The position numbers and the translations under genes are program-made. Below, piece after piece: positions 13,454 through 58,088 of a stretch of DNA of 64,000 nucleotides (position 1 is its first letter; each line of letters opens with the position of its first letter). The stretch is from an uncultured Pelagibacteraceae bacterium (GTDB taxonomy: Bacteria; Pseudomonadota; Alphaproteobacteria; Pelagibacterales; Pelagibacteraceae): assembly GCA_902612605.1 (NCBI GenBank), contig CACMDY010000001.1, forward strand, positions 372,001 through 436,000. Direction: 5' to 3'. A model generated the notes under the pieces. It was not told where the DNA came from, did not search any database, and worked only from the letters and a program-made list of their open reading frames with translations.

Positions 13454-16400
13454 TGAAGTTAAGAAATAAAAATTTAAAAATTTTAAAAAGTAACCATGTT
13501 TACTCGGAAGAAATGGAACATGATGCATGTGGTGTAGGTTTAGTAGCATCCACCGAAGGCCTAAAATCAAGAAAAGTCGTAGAATATGGAATCGATGCCT
13601 TAAAAGCTGTTTGGCATAGGGGTGCAATCGATGCAGACGGAAAAACTGGAGATGGTGCTGGAATCCATATTGAAATTCCCAAAGATTTCTTTGAGGAAAA
13701 AATTGAAGTCACTGGTCATAAACATGATAATTCTGAACTATGTGTGGGTATGATTTTCTTACCAAGAAATGATTATAGCGCTCAAGAGCAATGTAGAACT
13801 ATTGTTGAAAGTGAACTAACAAAGAGAAATTTTAGTATCTATGGTTGGAGACAAGTTCCTGTTGATCCCTCTGTCTTAGGAGAAAAAGCTGAACAAACAA
13901 GACCTGAAATTACTCAAGTATTGTTCACATACAATGACAAAAAAGTTGTCAATAAATCTCTGGAACAAAAATTGTATGAAACTAGAAGAGTAATTGAAAA
14001 AGAAGCTCTCAATAATCAATTAAATAATTTTTATATATGTTCATTTAGTTCTAAATCTATCATTTACAAAGGAATGTTTTTAGCAGAAGCTTTGTCAGAT
14101 TTTTATACTGACTTGAAAGATGAAAGATTTATATCTAGGTATGCAATATTTCACCAAAGATTTTCAACTAATACTGCGCCAAGTTGGGACTTAGCTCAAC
14201 CATTTAGATCTATAGCGCATAATGGTGAAATAAATACTCTTAAAGGAAATGTTAATTGGATGAAGGTTCACGAAGAAGAGATGTTTAGTCCAGTTTTCGA
14301 AGATATAGAGAATCTTAAGCCTGTAATACCAGCTGGCAATTCTGACTCTGCATCATTAGATAATGTTTTTGAGTTATTAAATATTTCTGGACAGCCTGCT
14401 CCTCTAGCAAAATTAATGTTAATACCAGACGCTTGGTCAAAAAAAAATAAGGTATTAAAAAAAGATCATCAACAACTATTCAATTTTTTAAATAGTACCA
14501 TGGAGCCTTGGGATGGGCCAGCTGCTATAGCTGCAACTGATAATGAATGGGTAATTGTTGCAACTGACAGAAATGGATTAAGACCACTTAGATATACAGT
14601 GACAAGAGACAAACTTCTTTTTGCAGGAAGTGAAACAGGAATGATAGATTTAAATGAGAAAAAAATTGTATCTAAAGGAAGATTAGGACCTGGAGAAATA
14701 TTAGGAGTAAGAATAGAAAAAGGCAAAGTATATTCAAACGATGAAATAAAAAACTACCTTTCAAAAGAATATAAACATTACAACAATCAGATTATTGATC
14801 TTGATAAAAAATTAGAGGCAGAAACTGAAAAAGTAGAGCTGGAAGGCCAAAGTTTGAGGAATTTTCAACATTGTTTTGGATATAGCATAGAAGATTTAGA
14901 ATTAATTCTTCATCCAATGGCAGAAGATGCTAAAGAAGCAACAGGCTCAATGGGTGATGATACGCCTTTAGCAGTTTTATCTGACAAATATAGACCATTA
15001 TATCATTACTTTAGACAAAACTTTAGTCAGGTTACAAATCCACCAATTGACTCTCTAAGAGAAAATAAAGTTATGAGTTTAAAGACAAGATTTGGAAATC
15101 TTGGTAATATTTTAGATTTTAGTAAATTAACTAAAGACAATATTTATGTCTTAAATAGTCCGATATTATCAAATGCACAATTTGAAAAATTTTTAAAATT
15201 CTTTGGAAATAATAATAAAGTTTTAGATTGTACATTCAGCAAAGATGATGATTTAGAGACATCAATAAATTTACTCAAAGTTAAATCTGAACAAGCTGTT
15301 AGAGAGGGAATTAAACAAATAATATTATCAGATAAAAATATTTCAGAAAATATAATGCCAATGCCGATGCTTTTATGTATAGGGGCAATAAATACACATT
15401 TAGTTAAATTAGGTTTGAGAGGTTATGTTTCTATTAATGTTCAAACTGGAGATGCTTTAGATACTCACTCTTTTGCAACATTAATTGGTGTTGGTGCTAC
15501 TACAGTGAACCCTTATTTAGCTTTTGATAGCTTATATCAAAGACATTCTAAGAAATTATTTGGAAATTTCACTTTTGATGAATGTGTTTCAAGATATATT
15601 AAATCAGTCAATCTCGGTCTTCTTAAAATAATGTCTAAAATGGGAATTTCTGTTTTAAGTTCTTATAGAGGCGGATGTAATTTTGAAACTGTGGGACTAA
15701 GCAGAACAATTGTGAAAGATTACTTTCCTGGGATGTTATCAAAGATTTCTGGAATTGGTTTAAAAGGAATAGAAAAGAAAATCAGAACTATACACAAAGA
15801 AGCATTTTTCAATAATTCAAATATTTTACCTATTGGAGGTATTTACAGATATAGAAAAAATGGTGAAACACATCAGTATCAAGGCAAACTTATTCATTTA
15901 CTGCAAACTGCGGTTGGACAAGGATCTTATGAAATATATAAAAAATACATTAAAGGTATTTATAATCTAAATCCAATAAGTTTAAGAGATTTAGTAGATT
16001 TTAAATCTAAAAATCCCATCGATATATCTAATGTTGAGCCTGCATCTAATATATTAAAAAGATTTGGAAGTGGAAGTATGTCTCATGGAGCTTTATCTAA
16101 AGAAGCACATGAAACTCTTGCTGTTGGTATGAACAGAATTAAAGGCGCATCTTGTAGTGGTGAAGGTGGAGAAGATGAAAATAGATTTAAGATTATGGAG
16201 AATGGAGATAGTGCAAATTCAAGGGTTAAACAAATTGCATCAGCTAGATTTGGAGTAACCATTAATTATTTAAATAATTGTAATGAGATTGAAATCAAAA
16301 TTGCACAGGGTGCTAAACCAGGTGAAGGTGGACAATTACCAGGTTTTAAAGTTACGGATGAAATTGCGAGATTGAGACACTCAACGCCAGGAGTTACTTT

Positions 16401-54218: not shown

Positions 54219-54294
54219 GGCTTCGTAGCTCAGTTGGTAGAGCAGAGCCCTGAAAAGGCTTGTGTCGCTGGTTCGAGTCCCGCCGAAGCCACCA
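54219..54294 (+). tRNA. tRNA-Phe (anticodon GAA)
   Basis: Acceptor GGCTTCG pairs with CGAAGCC, discriminator A, encoded CCA. D arm TAGCTCAGTTGGTAGAGC, anticodon loop CTGAAAA giving GAA, T loop GGTTCGAGTCC. 76 nt. A short inverted repeat ACCAC/GTGGT (54291-54306) overlaps its 3' end; it has no T run and may be accidental. Confidence 0.97.
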
Positions 54295-54409: not shown

Positions 54410-54622
54410 ATGAGTACATTAAAAGGCAAAGTAAAGTGGTTCAACGGAAAGAAGGGCTACGGTTTTATTGAAAGAGAAGACGGAGAAAAAGATTGTTTCG
54501 TTCATGCAAGCGCAGTTAGAGAAGCTGGGCTAAGATTTTTGAATGAAAACGATGCTATAGAATTCGAAATTCAAGATGGCGAAAAAGGTCCAAGCGCTGT
54601 AAATTTGAAAAAATTAGGTTAA
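54410..54622 (+). CDS. Cold-shock domain protein (CspA family)
   Basis: 70 aa single OB-fold RNA/ssDNA-binding protein. [33 protein letters not shown] contains RNP1 (KGYGFI) and RNP2 (CFVHAS), and the tail [20 protein letters not shown] is typical. Acts as an RNA chaperone; whether it is cold-induced or constitutive cannot be told. Stands alone between tRNA-Phe and the tRNA-His region. Confidence 0.96.
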
Positions 54623-54652
54623 TAAAATTTAATTCATCAAAAATATTTGTAT

Positions 54653-54687
54653 AGGAATAGGATATGTTAAAAAACATAGCTATTCCT
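54653..54687. repeat. Hairpin downstream of the cold-shock gene
   Basis: Two-part inverted repeat: outer arms AGGAATAG and CTATTCCT (8 bp) and inner arms ATGTT/AACAT around an AAAA loop, separated by a small internal loop. No T run follows directly, so it is not a standard terminator; it could protect the csp transcript 3' end or be part of a structured RNA leading into the His-leader region. Confidence 0.5.
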
Positions 54688-54741
54688 GTGCAAAGCCTTT
54701 TCTTGCTTGCATTTAAAAAAAAAAATGCTATTTACACCGCA

Positions 54742-54816
54742 ATGAATAAATTAGTTATTATTAACAAAGAAACTCACAGACATCATTTTCATGCTGGCTG
54801 CAAGCTAGCTATTTAA
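54742..54816 (+). CDS. Candidate histidine leader peptide, 24 aa
   Basis: Short ATG-TAA frame encoding MNKLVIINKETHRHHFHAG followed by CKLAI: four His in six codons (CAC AGA CAT CAT TTT CAT). It is 50 nt upstream of tRNA-His, which is followed by hisS, hisZ and hisG. The last His codon is directly followed by the 5' arm of a hairpin, so a ribosome paused for lack of charged tRNA-His would cover that arm. This is the arrangement expected of a his attenuator. There is no clear ribosome binding site; a possible extended -10 (TGCTATTTA, 54726-54734) with TTGCAT upstream would make it almost leaderless. The reading is inference. Confidence 0.5.
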   Translation: MNKLVIINKETHRHHFHAGCKLAI

Positions 54817-54820
54817 TTAT
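54793..54820 (+). terminator. Candidate attenuator hairpin after the His codons
   Basis: GCTGGCT-GCA-AGCTAGC forms a 7-bp stem with one G-U pair and a 3-nt loop, followed by TATTTAATTATTT, which is T-rich but interrupted. The 7-mer TGCAAGC within it is also complementary to GCTTGCA at 54705-54711, giving a possible alternative pairing. The weak T tract makes strong termination uncertain. Confidence 0.4.
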
Positions 54821-54866
54821 TTATAAATTTAATTTTATCCACATTTAGTATAAAACAGTAGAAGGA

Positions 54867-54943
54867 GCACGGGTAGCTCAGTTGGTTAGAGCAGCGGTTT
54901 GTGGAACCGAAGGTCGACAGTTCGAATCTGTCCCCGTGTACCA
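54867..54943 (+). tRNA. tRNA-His (anticodon GTG), lacking encoded G-1, with A73
   Basis: Acceptor GCACGGG pairs with CCCGTGT, so the first pair is G1-U72; discriminator is A73 and CCA is encoded. Position -1 is A, so there is no G-1 opposite C73 as in most bacteria. Anticodon loop TTGTGGA gives GTG, T arm GACAGTTCGAATCTGTC. This noncanonical form is known for tRNA-His of many alphaproteobacteria, which have a matching HisRS. A TATAAA at 54849-54854 could serve as its own -10. hisS begins 4 nt after the CCA. Confidence 0.96.
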
Positions 54944-54947
54944 AAAA

Positions 54948-56378
54948 ATGAATAAAGAAAAAAAATTATCAGCCAATAACCCTTCAGGTTTTGTTGATAG
55001 ATACGGTAACGAATTAGCATTAAAAGAAAACTTAATAGCTAAAATTGAAGAAAATTTTTTAAAATTTGGTTTTTCTAAGCTAGAAACTCCAAGTTTTGAA
55101 ATATCAGAAAATATAGGAAAATTTTTACCAGATGAAGATAGACCAAGCTCAGGTGTATTTGGTTTTCAAGAGGAAAATGATAGTTGGATATCATTGCGTT
55201 ATGATTTAACTGCACCATTAGCAAGATACGTGTCTCAAAATTATTTAAATATCTCAAATCCTTTTAAAAGATACCAAATCGGTAATGTATGGCGAAATGA
55301 GAAACCTGGACCTGGAAGATTTAGAGAGTTTACCCAAGCTGATTGTGATATTGTTGGATCTAATAACCCTTTAGCAGATGCTGAAATGTGCAATCTTTTA
55401 GCTGACACTTTATATTTCTGTGGCTTAGAAAAAAACCAATATCAAATTAAGTTGAGTAATAGGAAATTAATACAGGGTCTTATTGAAAATTTAAAAATTT
55501 CAGAAAGCAAACAACAACTTACAGTTTTAAGAGCTATTGATAAACTTGATAGAGTTGGAACTGATGGTGTTAAACAATTGCTTACAACTGGACGTGAAGA
55601 CAAATCTGGTGATAAAACTATTGGAGCAAACCTCTCTGATAATCAAGCTGATGAAATAGTTAGTTTTATAAATATGAAATCTCTAGATGAAATTAAGTCA
55701 GCCATACCCAATAAATTAGTTGAGGATGGTTTTGATGAATTAAATAAAGTATTAGATGGATTAAATTATTCATCTAATTTTGATCAAATAATTTTTTCTC
55801 CTGAAGTTATTAGAGGACTTGAATATTATGATGGCGCAATATTTGAGGCAAATTTAACATTTAAAGTCAAAAATCAAAAAAACCAAGAGGTGGAGTTTGG
55901 CTCAGTTGGCGGAGGTGGAAGATACAATTCTTTAGTTTCAAGATTTAAAAAAGTAGACTTATCTGCAACAGGAGTTTCCATAGGCCTTGATCGTTTGTTA
56001 TACGCATTAGTTCAGTTAAATAAAATCGAGGTAAAAAATAATTCACCAATAATTATATGTGTTTTAGATCAAAAATATCTCTCTAATTACTATGAATTGT
56101 TATCACAACTTAGAAATCAAAACATAAGATCCGAAGTTTATCTGGGAGACTCTGGTTTGAAATCTCAATTAAAATATGCAGATAAAAGGAGCTCACCAGC
56201 CGTAATTCTTTGTGGAGATGATGAATTTAAAAATAATAAAATTACTATAAAAAAATTAGTCCCAAATTTAGAAGAAACATCAAGAAATTTATCTAGAGAA
56301 GAATGGAAAAAATCTGAAAATACTCAAATTACACTTGATAAGGAGAACCTGATTGATGAAATCAAAAAACTTATCTGA
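54948..56378 (+). CDS. hisS: Histidyl-tRNA synthetase
   Basis: Class II synthetase charging tRNA-His. 476 aa from the ATG at 54948; the track's earlier start at 54882 reads through the tRNA-His gene and is not real. Visible: SGFVDRYGNELALKENL, motif 2 RYQIGNVWRNEKPGPGRFREFTQADCDIVG, the histidine-specific RGLEYYDGAIFEA, SVGGGGRYNSLVSRF and motif 3 ATGVSIGLDRLLYAL, then the anticodon-binding domain. With only 4 nt after tRNA-His there is no room for a separate leader, so the message must come from a tRNA-hisS co-transcript or be leaderless. Overlaps hisZ by 23 nt. Confidence 0.96.
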   Translation: MNKEKKLSANNPSGFVDRYGNELALKENLIAKIEENFLKFGFSKLETPSFEISENIGKFLPDEDRPSSGVFGFQEENDSWISLRYDLTAPLARYVSQNYLNISNPFKRYQIGNVWRNEKPGPGRFREFTQADCDIVGSNNPLADAEMCNLLADTLYFCGLEKNQYQIKLSNRKLIQGLIENLKISESKQQLTVLRAIDKLDRVGTDGVKQLLTTGREDKSGDKTIGANLSDNQADEIVSFINMKSLDEIKSAIPNKLVEDGFDELNKVLDGLNYSSNFDQIIFSPEVIRGLEYYDGAIFEANLTFKVKNQKNQEVEFGSVGGGGRYNSLVSRFKKVDLSATGVSIGLDRLLYALVQLNKIEVKNNSPIIICVLDQKYLSNYYELLSQLRNQNIRSEVYLGDSGLKSQLKYADKRSSPAVILCGDDEFKNNKITIKKLVPNLEETSRNLSREEWKKSENTQITLDKENLIDEIKKLI

Positions 56379-57408
56379 AAATATTTTAAAAGTAATTAAG
56401 TCAAACGGATATAAATATATTGATCTTGATACAGTTATTGACACCAATTTAATATTGGAAAGGTCGGGAGAAAATTTCAAAAGATTTATATTTTCTTTTA
56501 ATGATCAATTGGGAAATGAAATTTGTTTAAGACCTGATTTAACTATTGCATCTTGTGTGAGATATTTGAATCAAAATAAGAAAACTAGTGAAAAAATTTT
56601 TTATAGTGGTCAAGCATTTAGGAAAGGATTAAATAAAAAAGACTCTGTTATCAGAAATCAAATTGGATTTGAAATATTTGGATCTTTTGCTGAAAAAAAA
56701 GATGATAAAAAAATAATAGAAACTTCACTTAAAGCATTATCAAAAGTTAAATATAAAAGTGGAAATTTAGTAATAGGTAACATAGAAATTTTTAGGCTTT
56801 TGTTAGATAAATTGGATTGCCCATTAAGATGGAAATTAAGATTACAACGTCATTTTTGGAGAGAAAAATATTTTAATGATTTATTAAAAAGATTGGAGAC
56901 CAACTCTGATATCGACCCAACAATTGTCGAAATAGATAAAAAAAAATATTCTAAAATGATTAATGAAACTCAAAAAAAAGAAGTTGCTGGAAGATCAATA
57001 GAAGAAATATTATCAAGATTTGATAGTAAAATTAAAGATCCAAGAAGAACAAAAAAAGGTAGTAATGTTGTAAAAATTTTAAAAGAGTACTTAAAAATTG
57101 AATGTCCTATTAATCAAGCATCAAAAAAGTTAAATTTATTTTTTAAAAAAAATAAAATTAATCTTAGAGTTCAGGATGATTATTTCCCAATAACTAAAAA
57201 TAAAATTAATAAATTAAATGTTAGATTTAATTCTTCTTTTGGAAGACATCTCGAATATTATACTGGTTTGGTATTCAAGATCGATATTAAATCAAAGTCT
57301 GAGAAGTTAAATATTAGAGGTGGTAGATACGATTCTTTAATTAAAGATCTTGGCTTTAAAAAAAATATACCAGCTGTTGGAGCAGCTATTAACTTAGAGA
57401 AATTATGA
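56356..57408 (+). CDS. hisZ: ATP phosphoribosyltransferase regulatory subunit
   Basis: HisRS paralogue lacking aminoacylation ability; it forms a hetero-octamer with short-form HisG and is needed for activity and histidine feedback. 350 aa from the ATG at 56356, with AGGAG about 10 nt upstream (the track's TTG at 56353 is one codon earlier). The class II fold is visible in LRPDLTIASCVRYL, KIFYSGQAFRKG, QIGFEIFGS, GRHLEYYTGLVFKID and RGGRYDSLIKDLG. Lies between hisS and hisG with overlaps at both ends. Confidence 0.92.
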   Translation: MKSKNLSENILKVIKSNGYKYIDLDTVIDTNLILERSGENFKRFIFSFNDQLGNEICLRPDLTIASCVRYLNQNKKTSEKIFYSGQAFRKGLNKKDSVIRNQIGFEIFGSFAEKKDDKKIIETSLKALSKVKYKSGNLVIGNIEIFRLLLDKLDCPLRWKLRLQRHFWREKYFNDLLKRLETNSDIDPTIVEIDKKKYSKMINETQKKEVAGRSIEEILSRFDSKIKDPRRTKKGSNVVKILKEYLKIECPINQASKKLNLFFKKNKINLRVQDDYFPITKNKINKLNVRFNSSFGRHLEYYTGLVFKIDIKSKSEKLNIRGGRYDSLIKDLGFKKNIPAVGAAINLEKL

Positions 57409-58088
57409 GTGATGGTATCTTAAAAATTGGAATTCCAAGTAAGGGACGTTTACGATCGGGAGTTTTAAATATTTTTAAAAGAAAAAAATTAAAAATTCTT
57501 TCTGAAAGAGGTGAGAGAGACTTATTTGGATTTATTAGAGGAGAAAAAAATATTATTATTAATTATCTGCATGCTAGAGAAATAATAGAACGTCTTGCGG
57601 ATGGATCTTTAGATATTGGCTTTTCTGGATATGATTTATTAATGGAAAGCGAAATTAACATTCAAAAAAAAGTGATTGTAAAAAAAAAGTACGATTTTGG
57701 AGAAGCTACATTAGTAGTTGCAATCCCGGATGATTGGATAGATGTACAGACAATGCCTGATCTTGAAGAAATAGCTTTTGAATTTAAAGAAAAAAAAAGA
57801 AATAGATTACGTATAGCTACAAAATACCCAAATTTAACAAGAGATTTTATGTTCTCCAGAGGAGTTACTCAATTTAAATTGGTGAAGAGCCTTGGTGCAA
57901 CAGAAATATATCCATTTACTGGATCATCTGAGATAATAACAGATATAACTTCAACCGGAGCAACTTTAAAAGCTAATAAATTAAGGATATTAAAAGATGG
58001 AATGATTCTTAATTCTCAGGCTTGTTTAATGACATCAAAAAAAAGTAGAGAGATAAAAAATCTTAAAAGAGTTTTAAATAAACTTTAA
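57405..58088 (+). CDS. hisG: ATP phosphoribosyltransferase, short form
   Basis: First step of histidine synthesis. 227 aa, the short HisGs type without the C-terminal regulatory domain, consistent with hisZ next to it. Motifs: LKIGIPSKGRLRSG, DLFGFIRGEKNIIINYLHAREIIERLADGSLDIGFSGYDLL, RIATKYPNLTRDF and ATEIYPFTGSSEIITDITSTGATLKANKL (PRPP loop). ATGA overlap with hisZ. Control by leader-peptide attenuation is possible if it is read from the hisS promoter. Confidence 0.95.
   Translation: MSDGILKIGIPSKGRLRSGVLNIFKRKKLKILSERGERDLFGFIRGEKNIIINYLHAREIIERLADGSLDIGFSGYDLLMESEINIQKKVIVKKKYDFGEATLVVAIPDDWIDVQTMPDLEEIAFEFKEKKRNRLRIATKYPNLTRDFMFSRGVTQFKLVKSLGATEIYPFTGSSEIITDITSTGATLKANKLRILKDGMILNSQACLMTSKKSREIKNLKRVLNKL

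Follow-up and report, generated by a model that had tools for sequence, protein, structure and literature searches.

A histidine-codon leader with an adjoining hairpin conserved upstream of hisS in Pelagibacterales: a candidate attenuator of histidine supply

Introduction

The leader of the enterobacterial his operon (hisL) contains, ahead of the histidine genes, a short ORF in which His codons follow one another, and charged tRNA-His is sensed there via ribosome stalling. The pheM-pheST attenuator of E. coli places a tRNA synthetase operon under ribosome-mediated attenuation, in which Phe is sensed and a terminator/antiterminator pair is used. SAR11 bacteria rank among the most numerous cells of the ocean and are believed to possess few regulators. 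His leader peptides have been described in Bacillus upstream of hisZ and hisS* (Naville and Gautheret 2010, PMC2965389), and the uORFC-8-2 motif, whose consensus always ends in a U run, is located upstream of cysS in Rhodobacterales (PMC8632094). A survey of structured RNAs in P. ubique does not mention hisS; tRNA-containing intergenic regions (IGRs) had been removed from its table of candidate IGRs (PMC2704228), and the survey may therefore have missed the region described below.

In the window, that is, the whole 64-kb stretch of DNA analysed here, an initial annotation had proposed a histidine leader peptide and attenuator in front of tRNA-His-hisS-hisZ-hisG. The observation is confirmed and is much stronger than this first reading, made from the sequence alone, had suggested, and the interpretation offered with it is partly supported. 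The leader is absent from Rfam 15, and no paper on it was found in literature searches. A search of the locus against Rfam gave no match above threshold except the tRNA; His_leader (RF00514) did not match at its gathering score or at E values up to 5, and no T-box was matched.

Results

Leader ORF and gene organization

The locus is arranged in the order tRNA-Phe (54219-54294), a cold-shock-type gene (54410-54622), a strong hairpin (54646-54694; TTTGTATAGGAATAG...CTATTCCTGTGCAAA), the leader, tRNA-His, hisS, hisZ, and hisG. The leader ORF, MNKLVIINKETHRHHFHAGCKLAI*, occupies positions 54742-54816 of the plus strand, on which all of the features described below are located. It starts at the ATG at 54742, consists of 24 codons, and ends with TAA at 54814-54816. 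Its four His codons (54775, 54781, 54784, and 54790) fall within six codons. An RNA hairpin (GCUGGCU-GCA-AGCUAGC, 54793-54809; 7 bp including one G-U pair, −8.2 kcal/mol) begins at the base after the last His codon and is followed by an AU-rich spacer (54810-54866) that extends to tRNA-His (GTG; 54867-54943). The frame, the His codons, the hairpin, and tRNA-His all lie exactly where the initial annotation had placed them. The start codon of hisS (histidyl-tRNA synthetase, 54948-56378) is located 4 nt past the tRNA CCA. The end of hisS is overlapped by hisZ (56353-57408; start codon uncertain), a putative ATP phosphoribosyltransferase regulatory subunit gene, which is followed by hisG (57405-58088), the putative catalytic subunit gene; both names were taken from the initial annotation, that of hisZ also from its position after hisS. 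The hisS-hisZ-hisG order is kept in the family to which the window belongs.

There is no Shine-Dalgarno sequence before hisS (54940-54950), and the short spacing to the tRNA is frequent in relatives; with a gap of only 4 nt, tRNA processing would thus leave a leaderless hisS mRNA. Stems similar to the strong hairpin upstream of the leader (GTATAGGGA...TCCCTATAC) also occur in relatives. The hisS frames of L021 and of genomes G053 and G090 contain one in-frame stop codon, which may reflect sequencing error or decay.

When both strands of the window were scanned for TTG-N16/17-TA located 5-9 nt before the ATG of a short ORF that ends in a hairpin, this leader was the single match. Another short frame with clustered His codons (MLLNLHHMHHVPF...) is present at 13549 on the minus strand, and it has neither the promoter boxes of the leader type nor the hairpin. 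No second copy of the leader was found before the hisB-hisH-hisA cluster in the locus examined.

Conservation of the His codons and the hairpin

We compared the regions upstream of hisS in 79 genomes from the window's family, which span HisS identities of 42-98%. In all 79, which represent many genera, a short ORF runs into a hairpin approximately 45-62 nt before tRNA-His, the last His codon (CAT or CAC) touches this hairpin of 6-9 bp, and the pairs of the hairpin are unbroken. The invariant His codon is therefore the one adjoining the hairpin (65 CAT, 13 CAC, and L036 as the 79th), and the leader of L039 retains just this one. Among the 17 closest genomes, the His codons switch only between CAT and CAC, whereas codons −15 to −7, in the N-terminal half, change amino acids freely. 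The stop codon lies in the loop, in the 3' arm, or at most 9 nt behind the hairpin. Together with the sister family described below, a leader ORF with cognate codons, as is typical of ribosome-mediated attenuators, is thus predicted to be translated in 79 of 79 and 11 of 11 relatives. The alignment across relatives that the initial annotation had recommended shows the His codons to be conserved across the order, and the loss of His codons and stem that would have spoken against it did not occur.

These data bear on two other readings of the ORF. AT-rich DNA often yields short matches like this one, and 0.4 terminator-like sites are expected in the 800-nt stretch, so that a His-rich frame might lie beside a random stem by chance. 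However, the arrangement is unique in the window, recurs in 90 of 90 relatives, and shows only synonymous changes of its His codons; a chance origin, to which we assign a negligible probability, can be regarded as already refuted by this conservation. The ORF might instead encode a His-rich peptide that is functional in itself, for example by binding metal or by acting in trans, as has been reported for peTrpL, a leader peptide in Sinorhizobium (PMC7298713), and a short conserved peptide with His clusters would fit this idea. We consider it highly improbable: leader length varies from 15 to 33 codons, residues other than His are not conserved between genera (the family includes ETHRHHFHAGCKLAI, STHRHHPHAEHALS, HTHHHTHAKHGLGN, NAKHHFAHARLLLSY, STLRKALKGTSRVAHSHFHAG, and STHRLCFHSL), one genome has a single His, and the codons go together with the RNA hairpin and hisS.

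In addition, the leaders of the ATAGCC type (L033, L037, L041, L046, L048, L050, and L148) and L039 have one or two His codons and a replaced stem; this lineage possibly represents a decaying sensor.

Variation of the stem

Stems with different sequences occupy the same site in the family: GCUGGC/GCUAGC, GCUAGGC/GCUUAGC, GCAAGC/GCUUGC, AUAGCC/GGCUAU, and ACGGCU/AGCCGU. The last three show that the whole stem has been swapped in different lineages. Among hairpins that share one stem class in the window's family, there is little covariation, and the changes are mainly between G-U and A-U. Clear compensatory changes, which the initial annotation had named as a check, were found in the sister family. 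A DNA operator in place of an RNA hairpin was considered and rejected; the arms often pair via G-U, which is possible on the sense strand only and favours an RNA hairpin.

In three genera (L018, L019, L023, L052-L062, and L068-L070), the earlier His codons are located in the loop of a second hairpin. This extra hairpin ends 2-4 nt before the main one and shows compensatory changes (CACTCT/AGAGTG, CATTCT/AGAATG, GCAAAA/TTTTGC, and CGCAAA/TTTGCG).

Sister family and exchange of tRNA-His

In a second family of Pelagibacterales, a His-rich leader (M....HHHYHI* or similar) and a covarying hairpin were found directly before hisS in 11 of 11 genomes. The hairpin is approximately 9 bp long; four of its nine pairs are changed on both sides, and its covariation score exceeds those of all 500 shuffles. 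No tRNA-His lies between leader and hisS in this family, and in the one genome that was checked, tRNA-His is in tandem with tRNA-Phe approximately 1.4 kb upstream. The leader therefore goes with hisS, and tRNA-His is under the leader only in the window's family; the view of the tRNA as the ancestral target is thus not supported. Among 26 hisS upstream regions from other alphaproteobacterial orders, neither the leader with its hairpin nor, at matches to the same type of HisRS, an adjacent tRNA-His was found.

Two very different kinds of tRNA-His, of 77 nt (GCACGGGTAGCTC...) and 75 nt (GCCYKGGTGGTG...), occur in the window's genus (L031-L050 and L140-L147, compared with 54867-54943), where some tRNA-His genes were missed by ARAGORN. 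HisRS is only 50-55% identical between lineages with nearly equal leaders (e.g., L042). It appears as if tRNA-His-hisS had been exchanged beneath a retained leader.

Promoters

Upstream of the leader, a putative promoter, P1, is formed by a −35 box, TTGCAT (54707-54712), and a −10 box, TATTTA (54729-54734), at a position shared with relatives. Of 73 distinct upstream sequences, 63 carry TTG-N16/17-TA at a distance of 5-9 nt from the leader ATG, compared with 2.3% of shuffles; this excess is inflated by relatedness, yet the sequences between the boxes differ among genera. An upstream promoter, as attenuators have, is thus predicted. Only this position-fixed pattern stands out; overall σ70 scoring of the leader promoter was no better than that of shuffles in AT-rich DNA. 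At the corresponding place in the sister family, TTGAC(A/T)-N17-CA(A/T)TTC was recognized by eye. The transcript would be expected to start at approximately 54741-54742, on or beside the leader ATG, and the leader mRNA is probably leaderless.

The initial annotation had also pointed out a 7-nt alternative pairing between 54705-54711 and 54799-54805. The 7 nt are indeed complementary, but an antiterminator-like role is not supported: the upstream half overlaps the −35 box and consequently lies upstream of the probable transcript start, and it changes in relatives. This pairing was therefore rejected as an unconserved feature of the promoter region.

A TATAAA sequence (54849-54854) in the spacer may be the −10 box belonging to a second tRNA-His promoter, P2, or may represent some other conserved element. 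A possible tRNA promoter downstream had been acknowledged as a weak point of the attenuator. If this box were the true promoter of tRNA-His-hisS, the leader would be minor or a separate unit. A P2-like sequence, [TG]ATA[AT]N, lies 14-22 nt before tRNA-His in 59 of 62 distinct spacers (25% in shuffles), with a conserved [TG]ATAAA box 16-20 nt ahead of the tRNA, and similar boxes often precede other tRNA genes of the genome. However, no TTG was detected 15-19 nt upstream of the box in any of the 59 spacers, compared with 63 of 73 upstream sequences with P1, and neither the His codon touching the hairpin in every genome nor the sister-family leader that has no adjacent tRNA would be explained. 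We regard it as improbable that P2 is the true promoter. P2 may give a basal level of tRNA-His supply, and the two promoters can coexist.

Folding with modelled ribosomes

RNA folding was calculated with a ribosome footprint covering positions −17 to +12 relative to the A site. The probability of the hairpin was 0.97 both with no ribosome and with one at the first His codon; for stalling at the second, third, and last His codons, it was 0.76, 0.04, and 0.00, respectively. Only stalling at the last two His codons opens the hairpin. The idea, already put forward in the initial annotation, that a stalled ribosome would cover the 5' arm is thus upheld by the model. The invariant His codon is the last one and fits a sensor in which stalling opens the hairpin; the hairpin would therefore be expected to act negatively, and starvation to switch expression on. 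In the model, the hairpin is also blocked when a ribosome sits at the stop codon, which means that the high-histidine state needs prompt release.

Once the 5' arm was covered, no strong other partner emerged in the folding, and no conserved competing structure was found among relatives; a mutually exclusive antiterminator is accordingly lacking. Pairing of the 3' arm with the tRNA D arm (AGCUA/UAGCU) was dismissed because the partner is missing in the tRNAs of other lineages. The drawn tRNA fold was unaffected by the modelled ribosome position.

It is very probable that the leader senses charged tRNA-His. The control of hisS and, in the window's family, of the tRNA-His gene by charged tRNA-His, as first suggested in the initial annotation, is the best reading because the His codons and the hairpin are conserved across the order.

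The hairpin tail and the output of the sensor

The tail behind the hairpin in the window, UAUUUAAU, has U at only five of eight positions. Counted over distinct tails, the 8 nt that follow the hairpin contain on average 4.3 T in the window's genus, compared with 3.0 in other genera, whereas the upstream terminators at the same loci (L031, L038, L047, and L049) have six to seven U in eight. The stem of an intrinsic terminator is thus present, albeit at only about −8 kcal/mol, and the U run is missing in most relatives; the poor T tract had been conceded from the start, and the classical terminator that was proposed nevertheless is not borne out. In the sister family (L129-L139), a conserved ACCCC(C) segment lies approximately 5 nt behind the leader hairpin, and only some members have U5 approximately 10 nt later.

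The hairpins either terminate transcription without a U tract or act otherwise (pausing, Rho, or cleavage). If the same sensor had another output, it would act by pausing, Rho-dependent termination, or cleavage or stability of the leader-tRNA-hisS transcript and not by termination at the hairpin. The missing U tract in most relatives, and in the sister family the ACCCC segment with U5 following later in some members only, are in line with such an output, and the AU-rich spacer would suit cleavage of the RNase E type. However, the spacer is C-poor and short for Rho loading, and excision of the tRNA would part the leader from the hisS mRNA, leaving little scope for control after processing in the window's family. 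Because the hisS mRNA would then start 4 nt before its ATG, the leader is likely to act on hisS mainly at transcription. We therefore consider another output rather unlikely, and favour ribosome-mediated transcription attenuation by direct occlusion of the hairpin by the ribosome, which is the probable output.

Discussion

Occlusion of the hairpin by the ribosome would work as follows. Transcription would begin from P1, at or adjacent to the leader AUG, and on this leaderless message a ribosome would follow RNA polymerase at once. When charged tRNA-His is plentiful, the ribosome would pass the His codons, terminate in or just behind the hairpin, and depart; the hairpin would then form, and transcription into tRNA-His-hisS-hisZ-hisG would be stopped or reduced. 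When charged tRNA-His is scarce, the ribosome would stall with one of the last His codons in the A site, its footprint over the 5' arm would prevent the hairpin, and tRNA-His, HisRS, and the first-step enzyme would be made.

More tentatively, at a little less than an even chance, we propose a minimal class of attenuator in Pelagibacterales, in which the leader ORF is leaderless, its final cognate codon abuts the only hairpin, and this hairpin acts with neither a U tract nor an antiterminator, so that the ribosome would be the sole antiterminator; in one family, a version of it would have come to control tRNA-His together with the synthetase. The leader would in any case provide a protein-free switch for histidine supply, conserved through Pelagibacterales, and would be a compact and new form of ribosome-mediated attenuation. 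Two questions are raised: can a hairpin of this kind serve as an attenuator, and can a tRNA gene be controlled by its own charging?

The SAR11 leader resembles hisL (RF00514) in its short ORF, in the His codons before histidine genes, and in the predicted sensing of charged tRNA-His. It differs in having no mutually exclusive hairpins and no GC-rich terminator with a U run, in usually carrying two to six His codons instead of the seven of hisL, in its target (tRNA-His-hisS-hisZ-hisG), and in the position of the stop codon, which in the window's family is in or behind the hairpin. pheM-pheST is similar as a case of ribosome-mediated attenuation of a tRNA synthetase operon; however, it relies on a classical terminator/antiterminator pair, senses Phe, and controls no tRNA gene. 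The Bacillus leaders (PMC2965389), compared here by their description, place a series of His codons ahead of hisZ and a hisS paralogue and hence have similar target genes, but they belong to Firmicutes, were found via Rho-independent terminators, and are described with no mention of tRNA-His in the unit. uORFC-8-2 (PMC8632094) likewise comes from Alphaproteobacteria and has a leader ORF whose cognate codons precede a synthetase gene, and its codons lie within the first stem, as they do in three SAR11 genera; on the other hand, it always has a U run, senses Cys, and has no tRNA gene in its unit. In SAR11, a layout like that of uORFC-8-2 comprises a first stem in these three genera only and a second stem in all, and the U run is absent there. 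The Bacillus His leaders and the Rhodobacterales Cys leader are thus the nearest in logic to the SAR11 leader, and both rest on terminators.
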